From Lentisphaeria bacterium (GTDB lineage Bacteria; Verrucomicrobiota; Lentisphaeria; Victivallales; Victivallaceae), in contig JAFVZN010000091.1 of NCBI GenBank assembly GCA_017508135.1, forward strand, positions 1-40,572: 40,572 bases of DNA. The letters run 5' to 3'. A model generated the notes under the pieces. That model did no database searches and was not told where the DNA came from. It saw only the letters and a program-made list of their open reading frames with translations. This document shows positions 336 through 40,142 of this stretch, piece after piece. A program made the translations under genes and the position numbers. The first letter of the stretch is position 1, and each line of letters opens with the position of its first letter.

Positions 336-3300
336 TTACGCCTTGGCAACAGCCACGGTGTACTTGAATTCGACGTTATCTTCGGTGAAGGTGGCGTTGT
401 AGTTGACACCTTCGAACGCGAACGCATAGGTTCCGGTTTCGAAGATCTCGCCAACACCAGTTCCGAGGACGTTGAGAGCAACTGCGGCATCGATGACCAC
501 ATTGCTTCCGGCGAGACCGGCGAGGGCCTCATCGGTGAAGCTGGTGAGATCGAGATCGGCAGTACCGGCAGCGATGTTGACGATGGAACCGGCAGCGATT
601 TCGTCACCGAATTCGATGGCTTCAACACCGGCGATTTCCGCGATGGTGGCATTGCCGACGACGACCAGAGCATCAGCAAGTCCGGTACCGGTCAGGGTGC
701 CGACGTTGGCGGTGACGTAGAGGTCACCGTCGAAGTTGACCGCACCGGTCAGCTTACCGCCGGTGATCGCACCAGCCTGACCGAAGGTGACAGTACCGAC
801 GGTGCTGTCAGCCGCGATGACGAGGCTGTCAACTTTGTCAACACCGGCAGCACCGAAGTTGACATCGCCGATGGTGGCACCGGTCAGGGTCAGGGTATCG
901 GCGTTGGCAGTACCAGTGAACGCGGTGGCGTTGTTAACGGTACCGGTGATCGCCATGTTGGTGAAATCTCCGGAGTAGACCTCGGCCTTCTTGCCAGCCG
1001 CGACAACGATCGCATCGACATCAGCGATGGATCCGATTTCGGTATCCGCATTGACGTTGATGGCGTCAACGTTGTTGATATTGGTGATGGAAACATTGCC
1101 GGCGATATTCAACGTGGCAACATCGCTCACAGCGGAGACCTCAAGCGCGCTGACCTTGTTGAGTTCAAGATCAGTACCGGCAGCGGTACCTTCCAGAGTG
1201 ACGGTGGAGACGTTCTTGTCGCCGATGTCATTGCCTTCGCCATCGAGGATGTCTTCGACAGTACCGGTGATGCTGGCAACACTGTTGGTAACAACCGCGC
1301 CGAGGACGGCGGTGTTGGCAGTACCTTCAGCGGTAGCAACATTCTTGATGGTGAGTTCAGCACCAGCCTTGATATCATCGATCTTGGCAGCACCGGAGAC
1401 CGCGATTTTGTCAACCGCAGGATCAACAGTATCATCGACGCTGTAGGTGACAACACGGTTCAAGGTGACAATACCGGTGACCGCTTCGTTGAAGTCGGCG
1501 GTGGCATTGCTGATGGAGACGTTACCATTGACGGCACCGTCGAAGGTCACGTCCGCGATATCAGCGATGGCAACTTCAGCATTGACTTTTCCGGCGACGG
1601 TGATTTCGTCGTCGACTTTGAATCCAAGCTGTGCAGTTTCGTCGATACCGGTGAAGGTGACCTTGGTACCTTCCATATCGGCAACGATTTCGTTACCGGT
1701 GAAAGAGGCGGCAACAGTCAGAGTATCGAACTTGACCAGCTCAGCGGTGACGTTGGCGTTGTTGACCATCGCGAGGATGTCAGCACCGGCGCCGAAGTCG
1801 ATGACAGCGGTGATGCCGAGATCGACGTTGGTGGTGTTCGGATCGAGAACCCAGTCAGTGCCATTGTAGCTGTAAGCGACATCGAAACCATCAAGCTTGA
1901 GGGCGTTGAGGGTAAGATCCGCAGCGTTGACCATGACGAGGTCATCACCGCCCTTGAGAGCGACGGTACCATCGATGGCGATATCGCTTTCAACGGTGAA
2001 GATGTTGTTGGCATCGCTGCCGGCAACAGTGACCGCCTCAGGCTTGACAGAGACTTCGACCTTGATGTTGGTGGGAACAAGGTCAACCTTGTCGTCGCCG
2101 GTGACCTTATCCAGACCGAAGGTGAAGGTGTAATCAACACCGTTCAGGGTAGCGGTCCATTTACCGGCCTGACCGACATAATCGGCAGCGTTGTAGTTTT
2201 CTTCATTGAAGATAGCTTCGAACTGAGCGTTGACATCAGCAACGACAGTAGCGAGAGCGGTGTTGCGGTCGACAGTAATCGTCGTACCCGCGTAATTAGC
2301 ATCGACCACCAAGTTATTGTTGAAGTTGATACCGAAGGTCGCCAAAGTGGCATCAGCATCAAGGACATTGAGCAGCATATCTGCACCAGCGGCTTCGCTA
2401 TTGCCGAAGTCAACAGTGGTGATAGCACTGTCACCAATCAAACCGAGAACGTCGGATCCTTCACCGAAGCTGACGGTACCATTGATAACGCTGTCGTTGA
2501 TGATCATGCTGTTGACGTTCCATTTCTGCTCGATATGAGCACCCCAGGCGAGCTGTCCGCCGATGTTGGTCCAACCTTCATCAATAGTCAGGGCATCGAC
2601 CATGTAATCGTCAGCGGTGAAATCAGCAGTGATGTTGGCTCCAGCGATGATGTTGATCTGATCGAAGGTGACACCGGCGTTGGTGTTGATACCGCCGAAA
2701 GCGGCCAACTCAGTAGCATCGATAGTACCACTGACATTACCATTGATAACAAGTCCGTCACCTTTGGCAACGATCTTACCGGCAGTGATGTCAGCGGAGA
2801 TGGTGTTGAGACCGGTAGCAGAAACAGCGAGTTCATCGCCGCCGTTGATGGCACCGACCTGATCCCAGATGGTGTTACCGGTGAGTTCATCGATGCGGGA
2901 AGCGTTGACCGCGAGATCGCCATTGTCCATGGTGAGATCAGCCGCGCTCAGATCGAGACCGTTGTCGGAGTAGATATCAGCATCGCCGTTGACAGCCATG
3001 TTGCCGCCGACCTTGACATCGCCGTAAACGTCGATATCGCCAACGGTGAGGGTCTTACCGACAGTGACGTTGCTGTACAAAGTTCCGGCACCATTGATTT
3101 CGAGAGAAGCATCAGCGGTAACACCGGCAGCCTTGACATCGGTGGTGATGGTCAGGGTATCGGTATCGTCTTCGATCAGTTCTTCAACGCCGTCATCAGC
3201 ACCGCCGAAAGCGATGTTACCCATTTCAACAATAGCAGTACCGAGGGTGAGCTTGTTGATGGTCAGGGTTTCTTCCGCACCGGTCATGGTGATGTCGCTC

Positions 3301-6300
3301 TTGAATTCAGCGTAATCTTCGAAGATGCCTTCTTCAACTTCGCGGGTGTCTTCGTAGAAGTTGATGGTGAGGTTGTCTTCAAAGCTCAGAGCGTTGACAG
3401 TAGCAGAACCGTTGATGGTCAGGCTGTTGGCAGCATCATTGTATTTGAGAGCGCCGTTAACGACCAGATCTTTGCCAAGTTCAACATCGTTGGAAGCATC
3501 GGCATCCATGGTGATGTCGCCGTTGACCTTGACATTGGCACCGACATAGAGGTCAGCATCATCAAACTTGTCATCGACATCTTCATTACCGACAGTCAGA
3601 GCGCCGACAGTGATGTCGCCATCGAGGCTGAGGTCTTCGAAGGAAACCGCAGTGGCAACGATCTTGGCGCCTTCAGCGGTGGCATCCCAGTTAGTGTCGC
3701 CAGCGAGAGTGGCAGCACCGGTGGTGAAAGAAGCGTTGACACCAACGTTGATATCGCCTTCGTCAGAAACCAAACTTCCGGCAGTCATGGCACCATCTTT
3801 ACCAACGGTGATGTTACCGGTGGTCAAGTTACCGGTGATGTCGAGTTTGGCACCGGCAGTACCTTCGTTGTTGTTGGCACCGAGGGTAACACCATCGGCG
3901 CGGACATCAGCTTCGAACTTGGCAACAGCACCATCCAGAGCGCGTTCGCCCTTGGCGGAGACTGCAGCAGCAGTTTCGATCGCAATGTCGCCGGTAAATT
4001 CAGCAGCCTGCTTGGCAGTGAAGTTACCGCCAGCCTGAACAGTCATGGTACCGGCAGCGATTTCGCCGTCGATGCTGGTGACAGCATCCCAACCGGAAGC
4101 AACGATATCAGTGGCAACGACGTCGCCCTTGATATTGGCGTTGATAGCGGCTTTGGCATCGTCTTCCCAGGTGACGTAATCATCTTCAGCACCGCCTTCG
4201 CCGAGGGTCAGGGTGTTGGCGACAGTGAAGTCAGCTTCAGCATTGCCGAGGAGCTGGAGATTGTCATTACCAAAGACACCTTTTTCGATGAAGGCATAAC
4301 CTTCACCTTCGACAGTCATAACGCTGTCATAATCGAAGGTCAAAGTACCATAGGGTTCTTTGTTGAACTTTTCGTCGTTGAGACGTTCGATACGGGTGGT
4401 ATCGGAGAGGGTCAGGTTGCCTTCAGCCAGGACGTCAGCTTCGAAGGTACCGTCGATCGCCATGTCAGCCTGAGTAGTGATTCCGTTTGCAGGATCGCCG
4501 GACCAGGCATCACCGCCGTTTTCGTAATCGTAAACGCGGACGTTACCGGCGAATTTGTCAACATCGAGGTCGAGGGCACCGATAACATTCAGGACCTTTT
4601 CGCCGAGGGCGAGTTCAGTACCGGAAATGGTGACATCGCCAACGAGTTTGTTGACATCAAGCTTGACACCGTCTTCAACGTTGATGGCGTTACCATTGGC
4701 GGTGATGGAGTCGGCCTTGACGCTGGCATCTTCAGCGATGGTCAGATCGCTGTTGAGAGCGACATCACCGGCAACTTCGTTGTTTCCGGCGAAGATGACG
4801 TCGGTGGCATCAACGTTGGCAGCCTTCAAGTTGGTGAAGGTGACAGTATTGGCAACAACATCACCGGCAACGATATCAGCGGCAACGTCGGTGTTGGCGA
4901 TATCGGCATCGCCGACGATTTCAGCACCTTCGATAGCAACGCCATCGGCAGCAAGAGCACCGGTGACCTTGACAGCGGCGAAGGAACCATTGGTGGCAGT
5001 GACATCAGCAGTGATAGCAGTACCGGCAACTTCGACATCGGTCAGAGTGACGGTTTCAGCTTCAACAGCACCACCGGCGATTTCGCTGTTGTTAACAGTC
5101 ATATCGGTAGCTTTGACAACATAGTCGTCAGCGATGGTGATGTCGGAATCGTTGATGGCAACGCTGTTGGCTTCGACGAGGTTGATCTTCTGATCAGCAC
5201 CGAAAGCGAAGTCAACACCGGTCAGGGCGACGTCACCGTAGACATTCAGAGTGGCATCGCCGTAGATGTTGCCCCAGCTGATGATTTCGATGTCGCGGAC
5301 ATTCATGTCAGCGGCGAGAGTGATGTTGGATTCGACCAGCTTGAGGTCAACAATGCCGTTTTCGGTACCGATGTCATCGACGAATTCGTTTCCGGCAATG
5401 GCGTTGGCGAAGGAGACGTTGGCATCCTGGAACGCGAGGCTCGCGGTGCCGCGACCGATATCAAGCACACCGTCAAAGGCAACATCGCCGCGGAAGGTGA
5501 TGTCAAGGTTGTTGACAGCGGTTTCGTTGGTCAGAGCGATAACGCTGGCAGCGTCGATAGCAGCATCTTCGATGGTGATGGAAGCATCAATGTCATCAAA
5601 AACGATTGCGCTGGCAGTGATAGCACCGGACAACTCGACGTCAATGCCGTAGGCTTCGATGGTGACAACGGAGTTGTCGATAGCACCGAACGCAGCTTCG
5701 GAACCGGCTTCGAGCAGAGCTTCGCTGTTGACGAGGTTGGCGATGGTGAGTTCATCACCGTTGAAGACGAGAGTGGAGTCTTCGAACTTGCCGAGGACAA
5801 CGAGATCGTTGGCAGTGGCAAGGTGACCGGAGAAGTCGCCGATGTAATCGGTTCCGTCAGCACTCAGGACAGCGTTGTAACCGAACTTGACTTCTTCGAT
5901 TTCAAGACCGGCGAAATCCCAACCGTTGACGGTGGCGGAAACCGCATCTTTGAGTTCGAGAGTGGCGTTCTTGTACTTCAGGTCGAGGGAAGCAACATCA
6001 CTGACAACACCGTCAGCGGCGATGATGACGTTGCTGGCACCGCGACGGGATCCGGTGAAGGTTCCGGCGAAAGCGGCATCGTCGATGACGAGGGTGCTTT
6101 CAGAAGCACTGCGGAGGTCGATTTCGCCGGTGTAGGCATCAGCGATGACGACTTCAGCTTTACCGCCGGCGAGGGTGATGTCGCCAATACCGGCAGCGTT
6201 GTTGACAACGACAGTGTTGTCGCCCTTGGTGAGAACCAGATCCTGAATTTCATCGGCAGCGACGGTCTGATCGGCATCGGTGATGAATTTGTCGATGGTG

Positions 6301-8174
6301 AAATCGGCCTGCCACGGAGTGACGGTTTCGATCCACTGACCGGCAACGGCATCGTAGACAGCCTGAGTGACGCTGACGATTTTCTTTTTGGCGTTGACGG
6401 AATCAACGGTGGTGCTGCCATCGTCATAGAGGAAGACGACTTTCTTCAGTTCATTGACATAGCCAGCATAGTTGTTGATTTCGGTAGCGGACAGGACACC
6501 GTTGATGACGATGGTGTTGGCACTGTCAGCACTGGTGGTGATGTTACGGGCATCGAGAGCACCGTTGACCACGACGAGGTTTTCACCGGCACCGGAGAGA
6601 TCCAGCTTGGAGAGACGGCCGTTGATGGTCAGAGTGTCGTTGCCGGCACCGAGAGAAAGTTTACCGGTGAAATAGGTGTTGTCGTCGATGGTAACAACGT
6701 CATCACCAGCCATGGTCTTGAAGTTGTAGGCGATTTCACGGGCATAGTTGTTGTTGATGGCATCATAACTCCAGCCGAAGGAGACAACGTCGTCCGCGCT
6801 GGACAGCACGTTGGCAACACCCTGACGGTTGATGTAACCATCGACGGAGAGTTCCAGAGTCGCGCCGGTGTAGGTGAAGATCAGCTTGCCGGTTTCGACT
6901 TCATTACCTTTTTTGTCGGTAACGGTTGCGAAGGAGAGTTCATACTGATAATCAGCGATGAGACCGCCTTCGTCTTTCTTGATGTTGATCTGGTTGACAT
7001 CGAAGGAAGCGGAGGTGAACTTCTTGGCAACGCCCTGGATCAAAGCACGGCTGAAGGAACCGCCGGCGGTGATAAGATCACTGTCGATGGAAACGGTCAG
7101 CTTGTTCAGCTTGTAATCGCTCTTGAGGGTAAGGATGGCAGCCTGATTGCTGTTGTCGATCTCAGAAAGTTCGATGATGTATTCGGCGTTGACCATGGAC
7201 TTGTCCTGACCTTTGGAGAAGGTGACAGCACTGTTGTCCTTGATGGTAACGGTGTCCATGCCCTTGACGGTAGCGGCGAAATCGCCCTGATACGCATCGA
7301 GAACGAGGTCCTTGGAACCGAAAACAACACCTTTGCCGCTGGGAGTACCGACGATCTTGCCGATCTTACCGGCACTGCCGACCGCACCATTGGTGGTGAC
7401 GGTGATGGTGACATCGCCGAGGACGTTGGCGTTCTTACCGCCGGCGTAGATGGTACCGATGCTCATGGCAGAAGCGGTCGCCGCGGAGTTCATGTCGATG
7501 TTGATAGCAACGTCGCCGACAACTTTGGCACCGTCGACACCACCGCCGTAAACGTTGGTGATTTTGCCGCCGGAGATGTTGATGGTGGCGTTTTCAGTGA
7601 TGCTGGTAGCACCGGCACCGCCAGCGTAAACGTTGGTGACGGTTCCGCCGATGACATCGATGCTGGCATCTTTGGTGATGGCCTGAACTTCGACTTTGTA
7701 CTTCTTGGAAGTAGCAGTGTCGGTCATGACCGCGCCGGCGAAAGCATCGGTGACTTTGGCATCATAGATAACGACATCGGAATCAGCGATGACGACAGTT
7801 TCGGGCTCGACGCTGGTCGGAGCATACTTCTTGTCTTCAGCGGTGAATTCGACTTTGGCACCGGCGACCAACTTGGCGGTGACGCCGTCTTCGAGGACGA
7901 CTTTGGCACCGGCGATTTCGCCAGCTTTGTCGCTCAGCTCGATACCGGCGACGCTCTTGGCGGTACCTTTACCGGCATAACCTTTGACAGTGATGTCATC
8001 GGTGCCGTTGCCGTACACGCCGATCTTGCTCACAGAACCGTCGATGATAACGGTATCAACACCGTCTTCAACGATTCCATTGGTGGTGTCTTTTCCGACA
8101 ACCTGAATTTTGGAAGCAGCGATCTCTTCCGCGTTCTGAAGGCCATCAAAAAGATCTTTGATGTTTTTACTCAT
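336..8174 (-). CDS. Giant beta-strand-repeat protein (secreted adhesin or surface-layer candidate)
   Basis: This encodes about 2,612 residues. I place the start at the ATG at 8174 (MSKNIKDLF), because a GGAG motif sits about 6 nt upstream. An ATG 15 nt further upstream lies before that site. The protein is acidic, I see no cysteine, and it is built of short alternating V/I/L/A/N/G/D strands such as GDVTI, GNVSI and LxVxGAL. The N-terminal quarter has the YAGG/YGGG turns typical of right-handed beta-helix adhesins. Scattered GAGND, GGDD and GAGAD turns resemble RTX calcium-binding repeats but are not in long arrays. There is no N-terminal signal peptide, so type I secretion through a C-terminal signal is plausible. 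The composition resembles surface-layer proteins. Strong codon bias suggests high expression. It ends at a strong terminator and is probably co-transcribed with the small gene upstream. The exact function is unknown. Confidence 0.85.
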   Translation of the reverse strand: MSKNIKDLFDGLQNAEEIAASKIQVVGKDTTNGIVEDGVDTVIIDGSVSKIGVYGNGTDDITVKGYAGKGTAKSVAGIELSDKAGEIAGAKVVLEDGVTAKLVAGAKVEFTAEDKKYAPTSVEPETVVIADSDVVIYDAKVTDAFAGAVMTDTATSKKYKVEVQAITKDASIDVIGGTVTNVYAGGAGATSITENATINISGGKITNVYGGGVDGAKVVGDVAINIDMNSAATASAMSIGTIYAGGKNANVLGDVTITVTTNGAVGSAGKIGKIVGTPSGKGVVFGSKDLVLDAYQGDFAATVKGMDTVTIKDNSAVTFSKGQDKSMVNAEYIIELSEIDNSNQAAILTLKSDYKLNKLTVSIDSDLITAGGSFSRALIQGVAKKFTSASFDVNQINIKKDEGGLIADYQYELSFATVTDKKGNEVETGKLIFTYTGATLELSVDGYINRQGVANVLSSADDVVSFGWSYDAINNNYAREIAYNFKTMAGDDVVTIDDNTYFTGKLSLGAGNDTLTINGRLSKLDLSGAGENLVVVNGALDARNITTSADSANTIVINGVLSATEINNYAGYVNELKKVVFLYDDGSTTVDSVNAKKKIVSVTQAVYDAVAGQWIETVTPWQADFTIDKFITDADQTVAADEIQDLVLTKGDNTVVVNNAAGIGDITLAGGKAEVVIADAYTGEIDLRSASESTLVIDDAAFAGTFTGSRRGASNVIIAADGVVSDVASLDLKYKNATLELKDAVSATVNGWDFAGLEIEEVKFGYNAVLSADGTDYIGDFSGHLATANDLVVLGKFEDSTLVFNGDELTIANLVNSEALLEAGSEAAFGAIDNSVVTIEAYGIDVELSGAITASAIVFDDIDASITIEDAAIDAASVIALTNETAVNNLDITFRGDVAFDGVLDIGRGTASLAFQDANVSFANAIAGNEFVDDIGTENGIVDLKLVESNITLAADMNVRDIEIISWGNIYGDATLNVYGDVALTGVDFAFGADQKINLVEANSVAINDSDITIADDYVVKATDMTVNNSEIAGGAVEAETVTLTDVEVAGTAITADVTATNGSFAAVKVTGALAADGVAIEGAEIVGDADIANTDVAADIVAGDVVANTVTFTNLKAANVDATDVIFAGNNEVAGDVALNSDLTIAEDASVKADSITANGNAINVEDGVKLDVNKLVGDVTISGTELALGEKVLNVIGALDLDVDKFAGNVRVYDYENGGDAWSGDPANGITTQADMAIDGTFEADVLAEGNLTLSDTTRIERLNDEKFNKEPYGTLTFDYDSVMTVEGEGYAFIEKGVFGNDNLQLLGNAEADFTVANTLTLGEGGAEDDYVTWEDDAKAAINANIKGDVVATDIVASGWDAVTSIDGEIAAGTMTVQAGGNFTAKQAAEFTGDIAIETAAAVSAKGERALDGAVAKFEADVRADGVTLGANNNEGTAGAKLDITGNLTTGNITVGKDGAMTAGSLVSDEGDINVGVNASFTTGAATLAGDTNWDATAEGAKIVATAVSFEDLSLDGDITVGALTVGNEDVDDKFDDADLYVGANVKVNGDITMDADASNDVELGKDLVVNGALKYNDAANSLTINGSATVNALSFEDNLTINFYEDTREVEEGIFEDYAEFKSDITMTGAEETLTINKLTLGTAIVEMGNIAFGGADDGVEELIEDDTDTLTITTDVKAAGVTADASLEINGAGTLYSNVTVGKTLTVGDIDVYGDVKVGGNMAVNGDADIYSDNGLDLSAADLTMDNGDLAVNASRIDELTGNTIWDQVGAINGGDELAVSATGLNTISADITAGKIVAKGDGLVINGNVSGTIDATELAAFGGINTNAGVTFDQINIIAGANITADFTADDYMVDALTIDEGWTNIGGQLAWGAHIEQKWNVNSMIINDSVINGTVSFGEGSDVLGLIGDSAITTVDFGNSEAAGADMLLNVLDADATLATFGINFNNNLVVDANYAGTTITVDRNTALATVVADVNAQFEAIFNEENYNAADYVGQAGKWTATLNGVDYTFTFGLDKVTGDDKVDLVPTNIKVEVSVKPEAVTVAGSDANNIFTVESDIAIDGTVALKGGDDLVMVNAADLTLNALKLDGFDVAYSYNGTDWVLDPNTTNVDLGITAVIDFGAGADILAMVNNANVTAELVKFDTLTVAASFTGNEIVADMEGTKVTFTGIDETAQLGFKVDDEITVAGKVNAEVAIADIADVTFDGAVNGNVSISNATADFNEAVTGIVTLNRVVTYSVDDTVDPAVDKIAVSGAAKIDDIKAGAELTIKNVATAEGTANTAVLGAVVTNSVASITGTVEDILDGEGNDIGDKNVSTVTLEGTAAGTDLELNKVSALEVSAVSDVATLNIAGNVSITNINNVDAINVNADTEIGSIADVDAIVVAAGKKAEVYSGDFTNMAITGTVNNATAFTGTANADTLTLTGATIGDVNFGAAGVDKVDSLVIAADSTVGTVTFGQAGAITGGKLTGAVNFDGDLYVTANVGTLTGTGLADALVVVGNATIAEIAGVEAIEFGDEIAAGSIVNIAAGTADLDLTSFTDEALAGLAGSNVVIDAAVALNVLGTGVGEIFETGTYAFAFEGVNYNATFTEDNVEFKYTVAVAKA

Positions 8175-8224
8175 TTTATTCTCCTTCATGTTTAGGGTTA
8201 ATGAGTGTTACAATTGTTTAGTGT

Positions 8225-21246: not shown

Positions 21247-23748
21247 TCACTTTTTCTTATTCTTGCGGGAACCCTTCCACACCGGAAAGAGCATATTGTC
21301 GCTGCCGCCCCACTGGAAACTCTGGTTCCAGATGGGAACCGAGTGCGCGGTACGGAAATAGATCAAAGCACTTTCCGACACGCGCCGCCGGGTATATTCT
21401 TCGGCGAAGTTGTCGGCAATCGGCTCAAAGGTGAAGCGGACACCGGTGGAGTAAACTTCCACTGCCAGCGCGCCCGCCGGATATTCCGTCATCTGCGGCA
21501 TATTGAACTGCAGCGCATTGCCGAACTTTATCGCGGAGGCGACATTCTTATGTCCGACCAGAATGACGGCTTTGCAGCGGGAAATCTTCTCCAGCAGCGG
21601 CTTGGCAGCGGCGGCGGCATCGGCGATGGATGCTTTTCCCCGCATTTCAACGATAACGCTGGATTTATCTCTGACGTTGATATATTTGTCGGGGAAGAGC
21701 TGGAAGTGGGAGAAGATGATAACCGGAAGCTTTTCATCGATTTTATTGATGACAGCAATGTTTTCCGGGGTACACAGTATGCCGCCGATACCGGTATTGA
21801 CCCAGGCGATCTGGATACCTTTATGGACGAAGATCCCGGCGGGGGCGTTGAAGTTTTTCTTCCAGAACTCCCGGTTGGCATCGTTGATGCGGTCATGGTT
21901 GCCGTGGGTGAACAAAGTTTTCATTTCCGCAGTTTTCAACACCTTGACTGCCAGCGCGAGTTCGCCGGGCAGAGCTTTGTCCGTCAAATCGCCGGGGAAG
22001 AGGAGGAAATCCATCTTCTGCTGATTGAAACGCTTGACCATTTCAGTGGCGAGATAACCGCTGCGGCTGTGCATACGCGGCGGGATATCGGGCAAAGTGG
22101 TCAAATGGATGTCGGAAAGCACACCGAGCTTGAAAAGCGGCTTGCCGGGAAAGAGTTTCTGAGTGCGGAACTTGCGCTGATAAGTGCCGCAGCTGACGGT
22201 GTATTCAGTATCCGGCTTGAGGTTGTCAAAGGTGACTTTGCCGAAGAAATCGCTGACGGTTTTGACCACTTTGCCGTTGAGTTTGAATTCGCGTTTGGCG
22301 GCGGTGTTGAAACCGTAGTGCAAGGTGGCGGAATCGGTGGTGACCCGGTAGAGGTCAATAAAGTCGATGATGTTCTTACGCACGGGGAACGGCGGGAGCG
22401 CACCCTCTTTTTCCAACAGACCGGGAAGACCGGCGGCGGCGGCGATGCGGTGGGGGATGTCACTGTTCTCCTGCGGAGCTTTGAAGTGTTCAGCACCTGC
22501 ACCGCGGACATAGGTACGCACTTTGGCGGGCGTATGGGAAAAACTGGTGTAGCTAAAACCGTTTCTGCTGTCGCGGATGCGCATGGCTTCGATGACCAGC
22601 GGATTGTAACGGCCGTAACCCATACTGCGCGCAAGTTTGTCGCCTTTAGTCTTTTTACCGGAGATAAAGAGCCGGCACGCCTGTTCCAGACGTTTGGTTT
22701 CATCGGCAGTCAAATTGGAAAGACCGACCTCTTTGCAGACGGTTTTGATAAGTTTGGCGGAAGCCGCTTTGGCTTTTTTCATCTTTTCGATCCTGGCGGC
22801 GATCTCAGTATTGGCGAGCTTCTGACCGTTGAGGAAATCCGGTTTCGCAAGAGCGAGGTCTTTGACCATCAAACCGCCGGTTTCGTGGTCGGCGGTGACG
22901 ACGATAAGAGTTTCGTCCGGATGCTTTTCGGCAAACTGCAGTGCAGTGCCGATGACCGCATCAAATTCCGCCATCTCCTGCATGGAGAAAACGGCATCGT
23001 TGCGATGGTTGCAATGGTCGATGGCACCGCCTTCGACCATAAGAAAGAAGCTGTTTCCGTCAGCGGAAAGGAGTTCTGCCGCCTTGGCGGTAACATCCGC
23101 CAGCCGGGGGCGTTTGGCTTGGACCGCAGAAGCGTGGGTATCGGAGATGACCGCGTTCCGGTCAGCAGATTTCAGGGTGTTCAACTTTTTACCGTCGACA
23201 ATGGTGTAACCGTTGCGGCGCAGAAGTTTGTTCAAATCTTTCCGGTGGAAATCCTGCGGGGAAAGCACCATGCTGATACCGAAAAAGTTGTAGTGGGAAG
23301 CAAACATATCCGCCAGCACACCGGCACGGTCCTTGCGGGTCAGGCGGTTGGCAAAATGAGCCCCGGGAGTGGCATCGTTGATACCGACACTGGAGATGAT
23401 ACCGATCTTCCAATTGCGTTTCTGGAGCAGACGGGCGAGGCTGCTGCGGGGATTGCCGTCTTTATCGACACCGATCGCACTGTTGTAAGTTTTGATACCG
23501 CAGGCGAGCGCAGTTCCGCTGGCGGCGGAGTCGGTGGTAGTGCCTTTGACGTTATTGGTACCGGTGGGGATGAAATCACCCAGCTTTGAAAAATTGGAGT
23601 TGGGAAAGAGCTTGGTATAAAGCTGGACAGTTCCTTCGCCCATACCGTCTCCGATCAGGAGAAAGACATACTTTGCCGGTTTTCCGGCGGTCAGGGTCAC
23701 GACGCAGAAAAAGAGTATCAGCGTCATTAACATACGGAATTTTTTCAT
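21247..23748 (-). CDS. Exported alkaline phosphatase fused to a calcineurin-like metallophosphoesterase
   Basis: 833 residues with a signal peptide (MKKFRMLMTLILFFCVVTLTAG, about residues 1-22, n- and h-region plain). Residues 27 to about 430 are a PhoA-type alkaline phosphatase. D34 lies in IGDGMG. S74 in TDSAASGTA is the nucleophile. VEGGAIDHCNHRND supplies the Mg Glu and zinc Asp/His, VTADHETGG the second zinc pair, and FSHTPAKV the last His. A linker with fibronectin-like strands (about 460-540) leads to a metallophosphoesterase: SDIHL near 546, PGDLTD near 583, THGNHDR near 614, FSHFQ near 678, VGHKN near 728. Both active sites look complete. It should work outside the inner membrane on phosphate mono- and diesters. 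GGAGG precedes the ATG. Its closest relative here is the neighbouring paralogue. Confidence 0.9.
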   Translation of the reverse strand: MKKFRMLMTLILFFCVVTLTAGKPAKYVFLLIGDGMGEGTVQLYTKLFPNSNFSKLGDFIPTGTNNVKGTTTDSAASGTALACGIKTYNSAIGVDKDGNPRSSLARLLQKRNWKIGIISSVGINDATPGAHFANRLTRKDRAGVLADMFASHYNFFGISMVLSPQDFHRKDLNKLLRRNGYTIVDGKKLNTLKSADRNAVISDTHASAVQAKRPRLADVTAKAAELLSADGNSFFLMVEGGAIDHCNHRNDAVFSMQEMAEFDAVIGTALQFAEKHPDETLIVVTADHETGGLMVKDLALAKPDFLNGQKLANTEIAARIEKMKKAKAASAKLIKTVCKEVGLSNLTADETKRLEQACRLFISGKKTKGDKLARSMGYGRYNPLVIEAMRIRDSRNGFSYTSFSHTPAKVRTYVRGAGAEHFKAPQENSDIPHRIAAAAGLPGLLEKEGALPPFPVRKNIIDFIDLYRVTTDSATLHYGFNTAAKREFKLNGKVVKTVSDFFGKVTFDNLKPDTEYTVSCGTYQRKFRTQKLFPGKPLFKLGVLSDIHLTTLPDIPPRMHSRSGYLATEMVKRFNQQKMDFLLFPGDLTDKALPGELALAVKVLKTAEMKTLFTHGNHDRINDANREFWKKNFNAPAGIFVHKGIQIAWVNTGIGGILCTPENIAVINKIDEKLPVIIFSHFQLFPDKYINVRDKSSVIVEMRGKASIADAAAAAKPLLEKISRCKAVILVGHKNVASAIKFGNALQFNMPQMTEYPAGALAVEVYSTGVRFTFEPIADNFAEEYTRRRVSESALIYFRTAHSVPIWNQSFQWGGSDNMLFPVWKGSRKNKKK

Positions 23749-31642: not shown

Positions 31643-33187
31643 ATGGTACCGACAATAGTCATTGGTGCAGTCGCTCTTCTGGCGGGAGCGATCATCGGCT
31701 TTGTTATCCAGCGCATCCAGCGCAACGCCGCTGAACACAGTGCAGCCAAAATCCGCAGCAACGCGGAAAAAGAAGCAGAACACATCCTCCGGGAAGCCCG
31801 GGTCTCTGCCAAAGAGAAGATCAATAAACTCCGCGAAGAGTGCGAAGCTGAACTCAAAGAACGCCGCAAGGAGCAGAACTCCATCGAACGCCGGCTCGCC
31901 CAGCGTGAAGAGAATATCGACCGCCGTACCGATACCCTCGAAGCCAAAATCAAGGGTATCGAAAAACAGGAATCAGATATAGCTGCCCTGCGCGAACGGT
32001 TGAATTCACGCGAACAGGAGCTGAACAAAAACATTTCCAGACAGATCGACGAACTCGAACGCATCGCCGGGATGTCCCGGGACGAAGCGCGGGGAGTCCT
32101 GCTGGAAAAACTTCAGAACGAAGTCAAAAATGAGTCCGGTCTGCTGGTTCGCAGCATCCTCGAAGAAGCCCGGGAACGCAGTGAAAAAGAGGCACGCCGC
32201 ATCCTGACTTATGCCATGCAGCGGTACGCGTCCGATTGCACATACGAGCGTACAACTGCCACCATTCCGCTGCCCAGCGACGAAATGAAAGGGCGGATCA
32301 TCGGTCGTGAAGGACGGAACATCCGGGCGATCGAAAGTGCCACCGGAGTCAATCTGCTGATCGACGATACCCCGGAAGCGGTGGTCATCAGCTGTTTTGA
32401 TCCGGTTCGCAAAGAGGTGGCGCGCCGCCTGATGGAACGGTTGATCGGAGACGGACGGATCCATCCGACCCGGGTGGAAGATCTGGTCAAAAAGATTTCC
32501 AAGGAGCTGGAAGATGAACTGTTTCAGGTCGGTGAAGCAGCTGTTCTGGAAACCGGTATCCCCGGAGTCAGCCCGCAGGTGATGAAGCTGCTCGGACGGC
32601 TGAAATACCGTTACAGCTTCTCGCAGAACGTGTTGCAGCACTCGCTGGAGACGGCATATTTCATGGGAGTTATCGCCGCCGAACTCGGATTGGATGAGAA
32701 GAAAGCCAAACGTATCGGACTGTTCCACGACCTCGGGAAAGCGATCGACCATGAGGTCGAAGGTCCGCACGCCCAGATCGGTGCCGATGTGCTGCGCAAA
32801 TATAACGAACCCAAAGATGTGGTCCATGCCGTGGCAGCGCACCATGCGGAGATCGAACCGGAAAGTTTGTACGACATTTTGATCAACACCTGCGACACGC
32901 TGAGTGCCTCCCGTCCCGGAGCGAGAAGCGAAACGACGGAACTCTATCTCAAGCGTCTGGAACAGCTGGAAGCGATCGCCAATGAGTTCAACGGAGTAGA
33001 ATCCTGCTTTGCGCTGCAGGCTGGACGGGAGATCCGGGTCATCGTTACGCCGGAGAAGATCGGCGAAGGAGATGCGCAGATGCTGGCGAAAGAGATCTGT
33101 TCCAGAATTGAAAAAGAGATGACCTACCCCGGTCAGATCAAAGTGACCATCATCCGGGAAACCCGTTCGGTGGAATACGCCAAATAA
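31643..33187 (+). CDS. rny: Ribonuclease Y
   Basis: 514 residues, the normal length. An N-terminal membrane anchor (TIVIGAVALLAGAIIGFVI) is followed by a long charged coiled coil to about residue 190. A KH domain with the GRIIGREGRNIR loop comes next, near residue 217. The HD domain contains HSLETAYFMG and GLFHDLGKAIDHE (the HD pair), and later AHHAE. The C-terminal RNase Y domain ends IIRETRSVEYAK. It is a membrane-bound endoribonuclease that starts mRNA decay. AAGGAG precedes the ATG. It is followed by a terminator at 33250-33284. Confidence 0.97.
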   Translation: MVPTIVIGAVALLAGAIIGFVIQRIQRNAAEHSAAKIRSNAEKEAEHILREARVSAKEKINKLREECEAELKERRKEQNSIERRLAQREENIDRRTDTLEAKIKGIEKQESDIAALRERLNSREQELNKNISRQIDELERIAGMSRDEARGVLLEKLQNEVKNESGLLVRSILEEARERSEKEARRILTYAMQRYASDCTYERTTATIPLPSDEMKGRIIGREGRNIRAIESATGVNLLIDDTPEAVVISCFDPVRKEVARRLMERLIGDGRIHPTRVEDLVKKISKELEDELFQVGEAAVLETGIPGVSPQVMKLLGRLKYRYSFSQNVLQHSLETAYFMGVIAAELGLDEKKAKRIGLFHDLGKAIDHEVEGPHAQIGADVLRKYNEPKDVVHAVAAHHAEIEPESLYDILINTCDTLSASRPGARSETTELYLKRLEQLEAIANEFNGVESCFALQAGREIRVIVTPEKIGEGDAQMLAKEICSRIEKEMTYPGQIKVTIIRETRSVEYAK

Positions 33188-33455: not shown

Positions 33456-36400
33456 TCAGATCCTGCCGCTTTTCTGTAATGCGGAAAAACCGTATTCCAG
33501 AAATTTTCGCGCCCTGGCTGTTACCGCGGATAATCCGAAAAGTTTGACCGTTTCCCGGAACAGTATCTCTTTTTCACAGGAGTTGAAATCAATCAAAACT
33601 TCATACATCGCATTTGCCAACTCTTCCGGCGGGATTTCATCGATTGTCCGTTTGGTTTCATCGCTGTTTCCGACCCGGTAAACACTGTATCCGGCAGCAG
33701 TTTGTTCTGCTGACCAGAACACCCTGTCTTCGCCATGCTGTGTTGTTTCCAAATTTTTCGGCAGGCACTCATCCAGAACTCGTTGAATATTACCACCGGT
33801 TCGACTGAAGCCCCACGCTCTTGCAATACGCCGTTTAAGCAGATTTTCATATATTGGAGCTTCCCGGGTAATAACTTCAGCAATTTGCTGCTGAATGATT
33901 CCCCGCCCGGAATATTCGTAAAAATCCTCCTGATCCAAATAGCGCAAATTTTTCCAGATATGGTATTCTTGGCGTTTTTCGGAAACTGCCGGGGGGATCT
34001 CAGAAGCATTTTGTTCCGGCTCCGTTCCTGTTTCCGGTATCTTTTCCTGCTCTTCCTCCCCGGCGGCAGAGGTAATGCCGGGAAGTTCCGACGGAGACTC
34101 TTTTGCTTTTTCAATGGCATCCAACAGCGCATTTTCTGCCTGTTCCCGGTCAAATGTCCAATCAACGCTCCATGCCCGGTAAGTGTGCCACCCCAGCCCT
34201 TTCAACACCTGATGCCGCAGATTATCACGGTCCCGCGTGGTCTTTTGTGCGGCGTATGCGGCATTATCACACTCTATCCCCAACAAAAATTCTTCCGGTC
34301 TTTCCGGATGGCGGAGTGCCAGGTCTATGCGGAATCCGGAACTACCGACATTGCGTTCCACAACATAACCTTTCCGGGTAAGAAAATCAGCAATTTCATT
34401 CTGCAGACCATCGCGGCTGTTTTCACAATTCACGCCGGAATAAATATTGACTTTCTTTTCCGCATAATCAAGGAAATACTTCAAGTGCGCCGCTCCCACC
34501 GCATTAGTCCGGGACAACTCGATCTGATTGGCATGGATACTGGAAAATACGACCACCTGCTCCTTGGCACGGGTGATTGCCACATTGAGCCGCCGCTCAC
34601 CGCCCTGACGGTTCAACGGACCGAAGTTCATTGAAAATTTTCCGTTGACGTCAGGAGCATATCCGATGGAGAAAAGGATGACATCCCGTTCATCCCCCTG
34701 AACATTTTCAAGATTCTTGACAAACAGCGGTTCTTCCTGAGCATCACTGAAATACGATTCCAATGCCGGATGTTTTGAACGTTCTTTTTCTACGAGGTCT
34801 TCAATCAGATCTTTCTGAGCCTGACTGAATGTTACCACGCCGACAGACCGGTAGTTGCCATTGGCAGCTTCCAGTCGGTCAAATATATATTTCACCAGTG
34901 CTTCGGCTTCTTTCCGGTTGGTTCTGGTCGCTTTCCGGTCATAAATACCATCCGGGACAAATTCAAACCGGATGCCCAGTTTTTCAGTATTCCGAGCTGC
35001 CGGGAACGTATATAACCGGTCTTCGTAATAGTGATGATTGCTGAATGCGATCAATGATTCATGGCGGCTGCGGTAATGCCAATTCAAATAAGTTGAATGG
35101 ACTCCGGCAGCGATACATTCATCAAGAATACTTTCCAGATCTTCTGTATCCTCCGGAACACCGTCATCACCTTCATTTTCGCCTTTCTGGAAAAAGTTGG
35201 TCGGCGGCATCTGTTTCGGATCTCCCACAACGATCAACTGCTTACCGCGGGCGATAACTCCGATGGCATCCCATACCGGTATTTGCGATGCTTCGTCAAA
35301 AACGATCAAATCAAATGCGGCACTGTCTGCGGGCAGATATTGAGCCACTGATAATGGACTCATCAGAAAGCACGGTTTCAAAACGGGAGCCAGCGTGGGG
35401 ATTTGTTCAAGCAAGGTACGCACCGGTTTCCGGCGGGCACGTTTTTCACATTCCCGCTTGAGAATACCCAGCTCCGTTCCTTCGGGGCATGGACCGGAAC
35501 GGCGGCGCGGTAAATTTGCTGCCAGTTTGGCAAAGATCAATTTCCTGGTCAAGTCCATATATTTCGCATCCAATTCACCGAATTTTTTTATCCGGTCATT
35601 TTGAACCGAACCGCTGAACTGACAAAGCAAAGGTGAACGGCTTAAAATCTGATTCAGCATGTTTTGGAAAAATACTGTATCATAAAATTGGGCAAATTCT
35701 TTTGAAATATCTCCATTTTCAAACATTGAGACCAATGCTGCCAATCCACAGGCATTGACTTCTTCACGCAAATTACGGTAACGCAGCATATTTCGTAAAT
35801 GCGGCATATGGGCAATGATCTTTTGAGTTTTTTCCTGCAAGACGTCGATATCAGTGACAGCAGTTGATGCACTTGCGTACCCGGCAAACTTTTGCAATTT
35901 GATTTGAAAATCGTTCCATGCCTCAAGCATATTATTGATCGTTTCCCGCAGTATGGAATCCCGTTGGCACTTCCGGGAAACCTCGGGCATCAAATCCTGC
36001 AGTTTGAGCAGGACAGCTTGTTTGGCTTTATCATCAAAGCGGCAAATTGCCTGCACCTGATCGAGAATCACTTTGCACTGCCCGATTTTACGGCTTAATC
36101 CATCCCAATCGGTACTTTCCCCCTCCCATTGTTTTCCCAGTAAGGCACTTGCTTGATCTTTGCCGTCTTCGTACGATTTAAGGCAATCAACATATTGCCG
36201 GGCATCCGGAATAAGTGCTTTCAGTTCCGGGATGGAGAGTTTTACTCCGCCGCTTTTTTTCAAGCCGGAGAGTTCCTTGAGCAAGGCACTGTTTTTGAAG
36301 AATTTTACTAAAAAGAAAGCTGCTTCGTTCCGGGCGATCCGTTCTTCTATGCCGGAAAAATCCCAATCTGTAAAAGTTTCCAGACGGTAATTTTTCAGCT

Positions 36401-39278
36401 TCTCTTTCAAAAACGCAAGATTTCCGGCATTTTCGGCGTATGAAACAATGAATTTTACTTTTTCCGGGAACTCTTCACTGAAGAAAGCTCCCGGTATATC
36501 TTCACTGTTTTTTACCGCTTCCAGAAGTACTGCGGTCTGATAAATCCCGGAGATATCTTTGAGATCTTGCAAGGCAAAGTTTTCTGCTGCAGTCAGCAGA
36601 CTGCATTTTAATTTGTCAACAGCCGATACGATATCCTTCGCGGCAGATGATAAATTATTTTCAATGACCGGACTCCACGACAAATTATCCAGCAGCTCCA
36701 ATGCCGGCAGACTTTCAGCAGAAATATGTTGCCCGGCTTCGGTCAGATCAATGAATTTCTGCCGTGAATTGAGATGATTCTCACGGGATTGAGTAAGAAA
36801 ATCCACACCGGGTGTGATATCAACACTCTTGAAACGCTTTTGGCAACTGAGCAGACGGGTGAAACAATCATAAGCAGAAAAACCATTGGGGTACTGGCGG
36901 TGCAGTTCATTGACATAAGCATCAAGTTCTTTCCGCAATGAAATCAATGTGGAAACTGTATTTTCCCATTCGGCAGGAACTCCGGTATCAGCCGTCTGCA
37001 AAGCTTCATTGAATTGTGCCAGAACTTCCGATTTTCCGGATTTATTGGAATGCAATTCCAGACAGAACGGTTTCAAGCCGATTTGCGACAATCTTTTATG
37101 CACCACATCCAATGCCGCTTTTTTCTCTGAAACAAACAATACCCGTTTGCCCAATGCCAGATTGTGCGCGATAATATTGGTGATCGTCTGTGATTTTCCC
37201 GTTCCCGGCGGGCCGTGCAGAACAAAGCTCTTCCCCATTTCCGAATAAAGAACCGCTGCCAGCTGTGACGAGTCGGCACTGACCGGGCAGTAGAGACGGG
37301 ACAAATCCAAGTGTTCGCTGATTTTTTCAGGCGGAAACACTTCAATATTATCATCAAAAAGCCCGCCACCGGAAATAAGGTGCGCGATCAAAGGAGTTTG
37401 TTTCAACACATCGATACGGGCGGTCATATCATTCCACATGACGAATTTACCAAAAGAAAAATGTCCGATACGGGCCTCTTCGCGGACTTCCCAGCCTTTC
37501 ATATCTTTGATGGCCTGCCTGAAAATTTGCATCACCAACGCCACATCCACACCGGAATCGTCTGTCGGCAGAGGTGATACACCGGGAACAGTCAAATGGT
37601 ATTGGCTGCGGAGCAGTTCCAATAATGTTTCATTGATGATCGTTTCGCCATCTATGCGGGAAAGTTTGATACCTTCAGTTATGGATCTGCGCTGCAAACG
37701 GACCGGCAGCAAAAGAATGGGAGCAAGATATGATTTTTCATCGCGTTCAGAAACTTTCCACTCCACAAAACCGATTGCCAGATACAAGGTGTTGACACCA
37801 CCTTCTTCCAAATCAGTTCTGCCCTGACGGTAAAGTGCCGTCAAACGACGAACCATCTCATTCGGCGGCAACATTGTCCACAGCCGCTGCTGACCGAGTT
37901 CACGCTCAAGTAAAAGCTTTATCTCCGGTTTTACATCGCTGTTCCGCAACATGGTCAAATCATGCAGATCTTTTTCACCAAGCAGATTGGCAAGGGGATT
38001 AAGAGTCAGAGATTCGTTATCAGCGATTTTATCTTCCAATACAGTGATGTCCGGACAGGCGACCGGAATAACCAATTTGGTATCCCGTACATTCAGGAGC
38101 CGGTTACGCAGAGATAAGTCAAGTAATTTATTTGTCCAGCGTACAATTCTCGCCGGCTGAGTACTTTCATTACTTAACTGCGATAAATCGATTTCTTCTT
38201 CCAGCCGACGCGCTTTTTCCGCTTCCTGCGCAGCAACTTTGCGGTCGACAGGAGCAAATTCAACACCATTCACACTGCGCTTTAATGGTAACGGGCGGAT
38301 CCCGCTGTAACGGGCGCGGATCACATCGATGGCACATTCAAATTCGCCATCGATATTCAAATGCTCCATCCGGGCCGAAGCTTCTGCTTTTGCGAAAGAG
38401 GAATCCCCCGTGACCATCGTAGTTTCGATAACCAGAAACTCATCCAAATCAGCCAGTTTGCGGATCGATTGCAGGTCGTCCATCGGAATATCCGGGAAAT
38501 ACCGGTCAACCAGATGACAGCCGACATAAGCATGACCTTTTTGCAGCATGATGACCGGATGTAATCCGCAAGATTCCATGACCGATGCAAAAAGGATCGC
38601 CGTATCCAGACAAGTTCCCAGCTTATACTGATAAATCGCATCTGCGAAGCGGATCCGTTGACCGGGAGTGCCGAATGAGGAAGCCGGATTGGAATAGTTG
38701 ATCCCCCAGTTGTGAACAGCACGGTAAATTGCTGAACAAATTTCATAAACCCGTTTTTTATCATCCTGATATCCTTGAACAGATGCACTGCCGGTGGCAC
38801 GTTCCAATTCGAGAGATACGGCACTTTGCAAGTGAGCGACAACATCCAAATTCGGAGTGACGAAGGATGCCAGCAGTTCCGGCATGATTTGCATACCGAG
38901 CCACTGATCCGGGGCAAAGGCTTCACACTCGAAGTCTTTCTGAAAAAGTATCCGGTTGCCATCGGAGATTTCCAGTTTTAATTTACCCTTCATGCTTTCA
39001 GAAAGGGCAGAAAGCAGATCGTAATTAAGCTCTATATCCGGTTTGTTGATGCAGAGTTCTTCGCCGGCTTTGACCTTGTTTACCGGGATATATTTTTCGA
39101 TAATAAACTCCGGAGAAGCAGAAAATCGGCATTGCAGATCATCGATATCGCTGCCGGTATTGTTGATAAGTTTCAATTCATAAATTACCGGCAAAGCATT
39201 TTGTTGTAACGCCAGATTAAAAAGCGGCACAAAAGAAAGCTCTGCTGAAAAGATATTTTCCACTGCATCAATAACCAT
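33456..39278 (-). CDS. Large SF1 helicase-nuclease, DUF4011/DUF3320 type (probable antiphage defence)
   Basis: About 1,940 residues. The start is the ATG at 39278 (MVIDAVENIF), with GGAGGA 7 nt upstream. The longer frame would begin upstream of the predicted transcription start (about 39299). Order of parts: a transglutaminase-like segment near 215-260 (GTCLDTA Cys, GHAYVGCH His); the DUF4011 region with WTNKLLDLSLRNRLLN near 385; Walker A GPPGTGKS at about 689-696; DEAS near 1328; GDPKQMPP; the late helicase motifs VQGDERDVI and NVAITRAKEQVVV; an endonuclease-like domain near 1640-1700 (GFRIDLAL, LGIECDNAAY); and a DUF3320 end. A helicase joined to a Vsr/PD-(D/E)XK-like nuclease fits DNA restriction of phage. 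To my knowledge a DUF4011-helicase-Vsr protein (Hhe) has been reported as defensive. By eye it is more A/T-rich than its neighbours. It is a single-gene unit beside a tRNA used as an attachment site. Confidence 0.88.
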   Translation of the reverse strand: MVIDAVENIFSAELSFVPLFNLALQQNALPVIYELKLINNTGSDIDDLQCRFSASPEFIIEKYIPVNKVKAGEELCINKPDIELNYDLLSALSESMKGKLKLEISDGNRILFQKDFECEAFAPDQWLGMQIMPELLASFVTPNLDVVAHLQSAVSLELERATGSASVQGYQDDKKRVYEICSAIYRAVHNWGINYSNPASSFGTPGQRIRFADAIYQYKLGTCLDTAILFASVMESCGLHPVIMLQKGHAYVGCHLVDRYFPDIPMDDLQSIRKLADLDEFLVIETTMVTGDSSFAKAEASARMEHLNIDGEFECAIDVIRARYSGIRPLPLKRSVNGVEFAPVDRKVAAQEAEKARRLEEEIDLSQLSNESTQPARIVRWTNKLLDLSLRNRLLNVRDTKLVIPVACPDITVLEDKIADNESLTLNPLANLLGEKDLHDLTMLRNSDVKPEIKLLLERELGQQRLWTMLPPNEMVRRLTALYRQGRTDLEEGGVNTLYLAIGFVEWKVSERDEKSYLAPILLLPVRLQRRSITEGIKLSRIDGETIINETLLELLRSQYHLTVPGVSPLPTDDSGVDVALVMQIFRQAIKDMKGWEVREEARIGHFSFGKFVMWNDMTARIDVLKQTPLIAHLISGGGLFDDNIEVFPPEKISEHLDLSRLYCPVSADSSQLAAVLYSEMGKSFVLHGPPGTGKSQTITNIIAHNLALGKRVLFVSEKKAALDVVHKRLSQIGLKPFCLELHSNKSGKSEVLAQFNEALQTADTGVPAEWENTVSTLISLRKELDAYVNELHRQYPNGFSAYDCFTRLLSCQKRFKSVDITPGVDFLTQSRENHLNSRQKFIDLTEAGQHISAESLPALELLDNLSWSPVIENNLSSAAKDIVSAVDKLKCSLLTAAENFALQDLKDISGIYQTAVLLEAVKNSEDIPGAFFSEEFPEKVKFIVSYAENAGNLAFLKEKLKNYRLETFTDWDFSGIEERIARNEAAFFLVKFFKNSALLKELSGLKKSGGVKLSIPELKALIPDARQYVDCLKSYEDGKDQASALLGKQWEGESTDWDGLSRKIGQCKVILDQVQAICRFDDKAKQAVLLKLQDLMPEVSRKCQRDSILRETINNMLEAWNDFQIKLQKFAGYASASTAVTDIDVLQEKTQKIIAHMPHLRNMLRYRNLREEVNACGLAALVSMFENGDISKEFAQFYDTVFFQNMLNQILSRSPLLCQFSGSVQNDRIKKFGELDAKYMDLTRKLIFAKLAANLPRRRSGPCPEGTELGILKRECEKRARRKPVRTLLEQIPTLAPVLKPCFLMSPLSVAQYLPADSAAFDLIVFDEASQIPVWDAIGVIARGKQLIVVGDPKQMPPTNFFQKGENEGDDGVPEDTEDLESILDECIAAGVHSTYLNWHYRSRHESLIAFSNHHYYEDRLYTFPAARNTEKLGIRFEFVPDGIYDRKATRTNRKEAEALVKYIFDRLEAANGNYRSVGVVTFSQAQKDLIEDLVEKERSKHPALESYFSDAQEEPLFVKNLENVQGDERDVILFSIGYAPDVNGKFSMNFGPLNRQGGERRLNVAITRAKEQVVVFSSIHANQIELSRTNAVGAAHLKYFLDYAEKKVNIYSGVNCENSRDGLQNEIADFLTRKGYVVERNVGSSGFRIDLALRHPERPEEFLLGIECDNAAYAAQKTTRDRDNLRHQVLKGLGWHTYRAWSVDWTFDREQAENALLDAIEKAKESPSELPGITSAAGEEEQEKIPETGTEPEQNASEIPPAVSEKRQEYHIWKNLRYLDQEDFYEYSGRGIIQQQIAEVITREAPIYENLLKRRIARAWGFSRTGGNIQRVLDECLPKNLETTQHGEDRVFWSAEQTAAGYSVYRVGNSDETKRTIDEIPPEELANAMYEVLIDFNSCEKEILFRETVKLFGLSAVTARARKFLEYGFSALQKSGRI

Positions 39279-39305
39279 AAAGTTCCTCCGGATGTAACAT
39301 ATCAT

Positions 39306-39334
39306 ATTATACCATCTCAAAAGAATATTTGCAA
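39306..39334 (-). promoter_or_regulatory. Strong promoter of the helicase-nuclease gene
   Basis: Minus strand TTGCAA (39329-39334) and a perfect TATAAT (complement of 39306-39311) with a 17-bp spacer. The transcription start expected near 39299 lies about 20 nt ahead of the chosen ATG, giving a very short leader. No repressor gene is adjacent. Confidence 0.75.
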
Positions 39335-39449
39335 ATCAAAAATCAAGATAAAGAGAATATTTGCAGTATGGCAATATGCAAATTTGGAAAGTTTTACGAT
39401 CCGGAAATAGAATAAGATATGAAAAATCGGGATATTTTCAGAAAATGAC

Positions 39450-39491: not shown

Positions 39492-39567
39492 GTCTCCATC
39501 GTCTAGAGGCCTAGGACACCGGGTTCTCATCCCGGCAACATGGGTTCGAATCCCATTGGAGATGCCA
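39492..39567 (+). tRNA. tRNA-Glu (CTC anticodon), CCA encoded
   Basis: The acceptor stem GTCTCCA pairs with TGGAGAT (one G-U). The D-arm region GTCTAGAGGCCTAGGAC is typical of tRNA-Glu. The anticodon arm is CCGGG-TTCTCAT-CCCGG, giving CTC. The T arm is ATGGG-TTCGAAT-CCCAT. Discriminator G and CCA are encoded, followed by a T-run. The last 22 bases plus eight downstream bases are repeated exactly at 39914-39943. Confidence 0.95.
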
Positions 39568-39575
39568 TTTTTTTG
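39546..39575 (+). repeat. Attachment-site-like direct repeat, copy 1 (3' end of tRNA-Glu)
   Basis: The 30-bp sequence beginning TCGAATCCCATTGGAGATGC and ending CCA-T7-G covers part of the T arm, the 3' acceptor strand, CCA and the T-run. It recurs without mismatch at 39914-39943. Such tRNA 3'-end duplications mark the ends of elements integrated by tyrosine recombinases. Confidence 0.85.
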
Positions 39576-39592
39576 ACTTTTTTACAATAATC

Positions 39593-39701
39593 GTGAGTAA
39601 TCCCTGCAAAAAGCAACTCCTGACTGCAGCAAATGAATTTGCCCGTCAGGATTTTTCTTTTTGCCGTTATTTTTTGCCGCGCAAAAAATGGGATTACTCA
39701 C
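39593..39701. repeat. Small element bounded by perfect 12-bp inverted repeats
   Basis: GTGAGTAATCCC (39593-39604) and GGGATTACTCAC (39690-39701) are perfect inverted repeats. Nested inside are GCAAAAAG/CTTTTTGC (39606-39613 and about 39656-39663) and TCCTGAC/GTCAGGA (39618-39624 and 39645-39651), the latter followed by TTTTT like a terminator. The whole 109 bp can fold into one long hairpin. It may be a MITE-like element or a structured RNA at the edge of the former insertion. No coding frame is visible. Confidence 0.5.
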
Positions 39702-39913
39702 TTTTCTGAGGGTTGCCTATTCTCCAAAAAATCTCCCTGCGGCGGCGTGAGAGCCGCCTCGCCGCTCGGGCTTTGCCCTCGGCGGTAAAGTCGATTTTCC
39801 GGAGGCCTCGCTCTGCGGCATTCCGTCGGCATCCGCCTTACTCATGCCTCGAGTATGGTAGTGTTGATTATATTATTTTTGCTCCGGCTCTTCGTCGGGC
39901 TGCGCCCTCCTTG
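39702..39913. other. Non-coding remainder of the segment between the attachment-like repeats
   Basis: No credible gene. G/C-rich repeated hairpins are present (CCGCTCGGGC-TTT-GCCCTCGGCGG near 39764, and CGTCGGGCTGCGCCC near 39893), the second next to the downstream repeat. It looks like the eroded end of an integrated element with the integrase lost. Confidence 0.45.
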
Positions 39914-39943
39914 TCGAATCCCATTGGAGATGCCATTTTTTTG
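39914..39943 (+). repeat. Attachment-site-like direct repeat, copy 2
   Basis: An exact 30-bp copy of 39546-39575, 368 bp downstream. The tRNA upstream half is not present here, so this is an att remnant and not a second tRNA gene. Confidence 0.85.
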
Positions 39944-40142
39944 CTTAAATTTCTGGATTTTCCCCGTTTCTTCCCCGTTTTTATAAAGGACAGGGTAGTT
40001 TAAACAGTGGTGAGCAGCTGATTTCAGCGGGGAGCAGTCGGAGCGTAGTTTACGCAAAAGCGCGACAAATCTGTGTGAGAACAGTATAAAACCAACAATC
40101 AAAAGTGTGCGGTCTCGTGCGCGCGAGCGTGAGAAATAAAGA
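39944..40142. other. Intergenic stretch with short hairpins, no gene seen
   Basis: Short inverted repeats GCTGA-TT-TCAGC (near 40017), GCGTA-GTT-TACGC (near 40043) and CTCG-TGCGCG-CGAG (near 40114) precede the terminator at 40143. A small untranslated RNA on the plus strand is possible. A TATAAA near 39982 is the only promoter-like hint, without a clear -35. Confidence 0.3.

Follow-up and report, generated by a model that had tools for sequence, protein, structure and literature searches.

Between rny and a tRNA-Glu gene, a contig of a Lentisphaeria bacterium carries one very long gene in which a helicase is fused to a nuclease, and this locus raises the question of what such a protein does and how it came to lie there. 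The whole stretch of DNA that was analysed, 40,572 nucleotides, is called the window below. The gene occupies positions 33456..39278 on the minus strand and encodes an intact protein of 1940 amino acids, its best start being the ATG at 39278 and its stop codon ending at 33456, with no stop or frameshift inside; the end at 39334 given by an earlier sequence-only reading of this DNA includes the promoter. A ribosome-binding site, GGAGG (39285..39289, minus strand), is recognizable in the sequence and is kept in two relatives.

Pfam searches bore out the domain order and the single-gene, defence-type helicase-nuclease proposed in that reading (DUF4011, AAA_11, AAA_12, REase and DUF3320, together with all SF1 motifs). 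The protein, whose parts all lie on the minus strand, is predicted to begin with an Ig-like beta-sandwich (residues 10-121, 38916..39251; model pLDDT ~93), whose matches among Ig-like sandwiches (VIA-align Z 9-10) include transglutaminase beta domains, followed by a transglutaminase-like (TGL) domain (residues ~127-330, 38289..38900). DUF4011 (residues 384-556, 37611..38129; Pfam E 3.6e-41) precedes the first part of an SF1 helicase (37071..37274), identified by AAA_11 at residues 669-736 and by its motifs, with the Walker A GPPGTGKS at 689-696. The two helicase halves are separated by a variable insertion (residues ~771-1250, 35529..36968), which is poorly conserved in the alignment and gave no Pfam match. 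The second part (34524..35375; AAA_12 at 1383-1579) is UPF1-like by phmmer, UPF1, SMUBP-2 and Sen1 being the nearest solved structures, and contains DEAS 1328, GDPKQMPP 1352, HYRSRHE 1401, NVQGDERD 1525 and NVAITRAK 1565. SF1 motifs I, II, III, IV, V and VI are all present, as expected for a UPF1-like helicase. Next comes a MTES_1575 (Vsr-like) restriction nuclease (residues 1627-1722, 34113..34400; Pfam 6e-28), which scores 97 bits on the REase_MTES_1575 profile against a cut-off of 38 and contains the acidic active-site residues D1652, E1669 and D1671, the last two in an E1669-C-D1671 motif. DUF3320, found by Pfam at residues 1785-1832 (33783..33926), is a winged helix (PMC3710099).

The protein scored 1946 bits on NCBIfam NF058533, "anti-phage protein ProA", whose curated equivalog cut-off is 1500, and residues 21-1917 aligned with model positions 1-1902, TGL part included. 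It also matched PADLOC PDC-S37, which is a candidate system only, over its length (1273 bits, profile positions 9-1536 of 1550). Klebsiella, Rhizobium, Pseudomonas aeruginosa and Comamonas plasmid homologues likewise lie above the ProA cut-off. Judged by sequence, the gene almost certainly belongs to the ProA family; both architecture and family are already known, and the gene adds a new member. It differs from the plasmid members of NF058533 examined, with which it shares only 28-36% identity over the TGL part, and from NF058533 and PDC-S37 in its Lentisphaerae host and in the occurrence of TGL-less alleles within the same class. The DUF4011 anti-phage protein Hhe (NF042953) was rejected as an identity, the score of 809 bits falling far under its cut-off of 2000; Hhe shares a homologous helicase-nuclease core with the ProA-family protein.

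Giant proteins of the MTES_1575 type, combining HEPN, transglutaminase, SF1, Vsr and wHTH domains, were described in 2013, when modification-independent recognition of invading DNA was proposed for them, with TGL-dependent protein cleavage as a further line of defence (Anantharaman 2013, PMC3710099). The protein studied here has in common with them a TGL-like peptidase, an SF1 helicase, a Vsr REase and a wHTH (DUF3320) in one chain with no methylase, but the 2013 giants also carry a HEPN RNase (PMC3710099) whereas here the N-terminus is a beta-sandwich, and Pfam gave no HEPN match in the 1940 residues. The sequence-only reading had stated that the TGL part has little described role. This has to be qualified since protein cleavage was proposed in 2013 (PMC3710099), although an incomplete search of the literature returned no experiment on it; the same search returned no mechanistic paper for ProA. 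From the name alone, one may guess that ProA is protein A of the DefenseFinder "Prometheus" system, which appears in published lists with no mention of its domains. According to their abstracts, Hna, an ssDNA exonuclease stimulated by phage SSB (PMC13381803), and Hachiman, in which a helicase sensor and a nuclease effector respond to damaged DNA (PMC12278908), offer precedents for how such a protein could work, the common idea being that the helicase or ATP state gates the nuclease (PMC13381803, PMC12278908). They differ in being other proteins or two-gene systems, their abstracts mention no TGL module, and the likeness is to be taken as analogy, not membership.

The N-terminal module had been read as an uncharacterized TGL-like part with a Cys and a His, and a fold match together with the conserved Cys223 and His249 agrees with this. 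By Pfam sequence search the domain is sub-threshold (Transglut_core E 0.02), and 5/17 homologues gave a Pfam TGL match, the best at 3e-4. An AlphaFold model of residues 1-336 built on a deeper alignment reached a pLDDT of 89; that of residues 1-650 reached 51.5. Modelled residues 127-328 matched yeast PNGase with Z 9.7 (158 residues, rmsd 3.9), and the modelled TGL matched Streptococcus pyogenes TglA and mouse PNGase with Z 9.2 and 8.9, values around 9 being suggestive and the matching Cys and His adding support. Foldseek searches on PDB and viral libraries gave matches dominated by the beta-sandwich. Gln207, Cys223, Asp225, His249 and Glu285 (within 38289..38900, minus strand) are invariant in 19/19 TGL-bearing members of the class, and the invariance of Cys223, His249 and Glu285 extends to homologues on plasmids and in prophages with identities as low as 28%. 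On the model, fold and Cys-His-acid arrangement are those of the transglutaminase-like (papain-like) superfamily, with Glu as the acid. In the alignment, the stretch linking TGL to DUF4011 varies, and nothing in it hints at a conserved site of self-cleavage. Model and conserved residues together make it fairly likely that the TGL is catalytically active, and it is probably a peptidase-like sensor or a second effector.

The explanation that we favour, and consider likely as a whole, is that this ProA-family enzyme destroys invading DNA as a single chain with no partner methylase. An anti-phage role in this host is very likely, and a mechanism in which the helicase feeds the nuclease, with DNA cleavage and its trigger as supposed below, is reasonably likely. 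The UPF1-like SF1 helicase, formed by DUF4011 and the split RecA domains, would engage phage DNA, probably at ends, on single strands or at replication intermediates, assisted by the winged helices at the C-terminus (DUF3320). Translocation powered by ATP would bring a strand to the MTES_1575 nuclease of Vsr type for cutting, and DNA targeting would be modification-independent. The Ig-like and PNGase/transglutaminase-like module, most likely an active cysteine peptidase or amidase, would be an optional second line that cleaves a presumed phage or host protein substrate or gates the nuclease.

Natural alleles bear on how far the TGL is needed. In genus g48, the genes of genomes G147 and G149 have lost ~330 residues in frame at FLP/PEE while keeping the native first ~25 residues, and the same junction is full length in G152, G143 and G141. 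A short similarity between the deletion ends, CTCCCG/CTCGGCCCG, suggests a loss by deletion between short repeats. Over the remaining part G147 and G149 are not sisters (AU p 1.6e-10), and the first third gives them another placement, which points either to two separate losses or to spread of one loss by recombination. Pairwise dN/dS was 0.10-0.18 for TGL-less alleles versus 0.11-0.20 for their TGL-bearing relatives, showing that the rest of the TGL-less protein is still under purifying selection, though the sequences would also allow a TGL loss late on the branch. The TGL-less alleles are nested among TGL-bearing ones in the ProA tree. Precise in-frame loss and undiminished constraint on the rest mark the TGL as a separable module, and where it is absent the function must rest on the remaining protein. 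Four further TGL-less genes (L139, L140, L141 and G099) group in a clade of their own, with Leu in place of the nuclease Glu1669 (IECDG to ILCDG), and given this clade the activity of the nuclease may vary across the family. Stand-alone TGL matches of the class (L142-L145) were rejected as split versions, as they look exported, have hydrophobic N-termini and adjoin no DUF4011 gene.

What is new here is the invariance of the TGL triad, the PNGase/TglA-like modelled fold and the TGL-less alleles. With the gene itself, a named defence family extends to one more host lineage; the near-isogenic natural alleles with and without TGL in one genus (G152/G143 versus G147/G149), with helicase and nuclease conserved, make the protease step conjectured in 2013 directly testable, and with it the wider question of whether a bacterial defence protein combines DNA and protein cleavage. 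A speculative reading, to which we give limited credence, is that the TGL is a swappable active peptidase that widens or controls helicase-nuclease immunity and is lost in frame as a liability, giving two working ProA forms that differ in effector range; under it an activated TGL could, again only tentatively, have a phage inhibitor or some host protein as its cleavage target. Alternatively, killing or sensing might be the task of the TGL itself, which would cut a protein of the phage or of the host once the phage is recognized, by way of abortive infection, with helicase and nuclease serving mainly for recognition. This would fit the invariance of Gln207, Cys223, His249 and Glu285 down to 28% identity, the equal constraint on TGL and helicase in the G000-G017 pair (dN/dS 0.076 and 0.077) and the protein cleavage already proposed (PMC3710099), but there are persisting TGL-less alleles whose helicase and nuclease are conserved, the TGL being dispensable for whatever maintains selection on them, and we consider it unlikely.

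The distribution of the gene bears on the preferred reading, destruction of invading DNA by a ProA-family enzyme. Copies above the cut-off were found in 4/34 genomes of the genus and 30/198 genomes of the class, the closest loci being in MAGs of Lentisphaerae, Lentisphaeria and Victivallales, several from rumen or gut. Beside rny (31643..33187, plus strand; TIGR03319, 670 bits), a flanking core gene outside the system, none of the 29 same-genus relatives examined has the gene, and 23/29 have an alanine racemase there. Vertical conservation at the locus, named beforehand as the observation that would speak against a defence gene, is therefore absent. In the nearest relative, G031, which has the alanine racemase at rny, the stop codon of rny marks the end of synteny with the window; the present genome's best match to an alanine racemase, only 46% identical to that of this relative, is located elsewhere, the assembly being 73% complete and the proof of an empty site at rny incomplete. 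The copy in G017, 89% identical, lies at another locus, shares only the gene and ~70 bp upstream, and adjoins a Ccr-like serine recombinase. The ProA and rny trees conflict: G001 is closer than G027 in the rny tree and not in the ProA tree, which also splits family f4.

Plasmids, some of them conjugative, also carry homologues above the cut-off, with AbiJ, TIR, toxin-antitoxin and IS genes close by. Viral contigs gave no match to the full-length profile and seven to the N-terminal alignment; prophage homologues of the N-terminal module sit within full-length ORFs, after a lambda-type J tail gene, amid lambdoid lysis/replication genes or next to an integrase. The Klebsiella homologue has no near match in complete Escherichia coli genomes. 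The A/T-rich, foreign composition proposed earlier was also recovered, GC3 being 0.47 versus 0.54-0.70 for 13 other CDSs of the window. As far as sequence can tell, the gene moves horizontally and is distributed like an accessory defence gene, and patchiness, plasmid and prophage carriage, tree conflict, low GC3 and the absence from rny in all 29 relatives together favour a defence role. The first four of these also argue against a UPF1/SMUBP2-related housekeeping RNA or DNA repair helicase passed on vertically and moved by rearrangement, which is very unlikely even with UPF1, SMUBP-2 and Sen1 as nearest structures and sbcD and sbcC adjoining the gene in G027.

In that genome sbcD and then sbcC follow ProA (L100 1-3264), and in Rhizobium an SbcD-like gene and an AAA/SMC-like gene follow it (L185 13901-17652); the ProA-sbcD neighbourhood possibly reflects a functional link, or is a coincidence.

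The gene does lie, as first read, between rny and a tRNA, here tRNA-Glu(CTC) (39492..39567, plus strand), a flanking gene unlinked to its mobility, and the 28-bp tRNA 3' end is exactly duplicated, with copies at 39546 and 39914. The idea of a tRNA integration site could not be upheld. The second copy is found past the downstream end of the tRNA, whereas the gene ends on the upstream side at 39278 and so is not between the duplicated ends; the ~340 bp bracketed by the copies are ORF-less and contain a hairpin and a dispersed repeat of ~150 bp (39719-39865) with ~50 matches in the genome, often tandem and at contig ends. The 3'-end duplications are also found in several relatives, most without the gene, in up to four tandem copies. 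Since the gene is outside the copies and gene-less relatives have the same duplications, these are an independent feature of the genus and not a scar of the gene's arrival. That the gene is the cargo of an island integrated at tRNA-Glu is highly improbable, and refuted in its simple form: an exact 28-bp duplication and an AT-rich gene adjoining the tRNA are outweighed by a gene lying 5' of the tRNA, a ~340-bp insert that holds no gene, duplications, some tandem, in gene-less relatives, and no integrase recognized among the window proteins scanned. The classic defence location that had been supposed finds no support either: the window proteins that were scanned include no other clear defence gene, and the class homologues whose neighbourhoods were checked have none beside them, a point that also weighs against the preferred reading.

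Across the genus, the 28-bp tRNA-Glu 3' ends recur one to three times downstream, mostly at a spacing of 140-370 bp (39546-39944 in the window; L112 982-1585; L115, L113, L078 and L077). The repeat units share the hairpin GTGAGTAATCCC...GGGATTACTCAC without an ORF and resemble small elements that are tandem or targeted to tRNAs.

The gene has its own promoter (39306..39337, minus strand), TTGCAA-17 bp-TATAAT with TG, which had been called near-perfect and private. The -10 is indeed perfect, but the -35 matches at just 4/6, for a consensus score of 10/12. A perfect palindrome, ATTTGCAAAT (39327-39336), lies over the -35. The palindrome and the -10 are retained in two relatives, G017 and G027, whose gene copies are at other loci, and the genome has the combined pattern just once, which supports the term private; the palindrome is a possible operator.

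Elsewhere in the window, positions 336-8195 hold two very long antisense-overlapping ORFs, of 2617 aa on the minus and 1886 aa on the plus strand, neither with a Pfam match, and positions 21250-23748 encode an 833-aa protein in which an alkaline phosphatase domain is followed by a calcineurin-like phosphoesterase domain.
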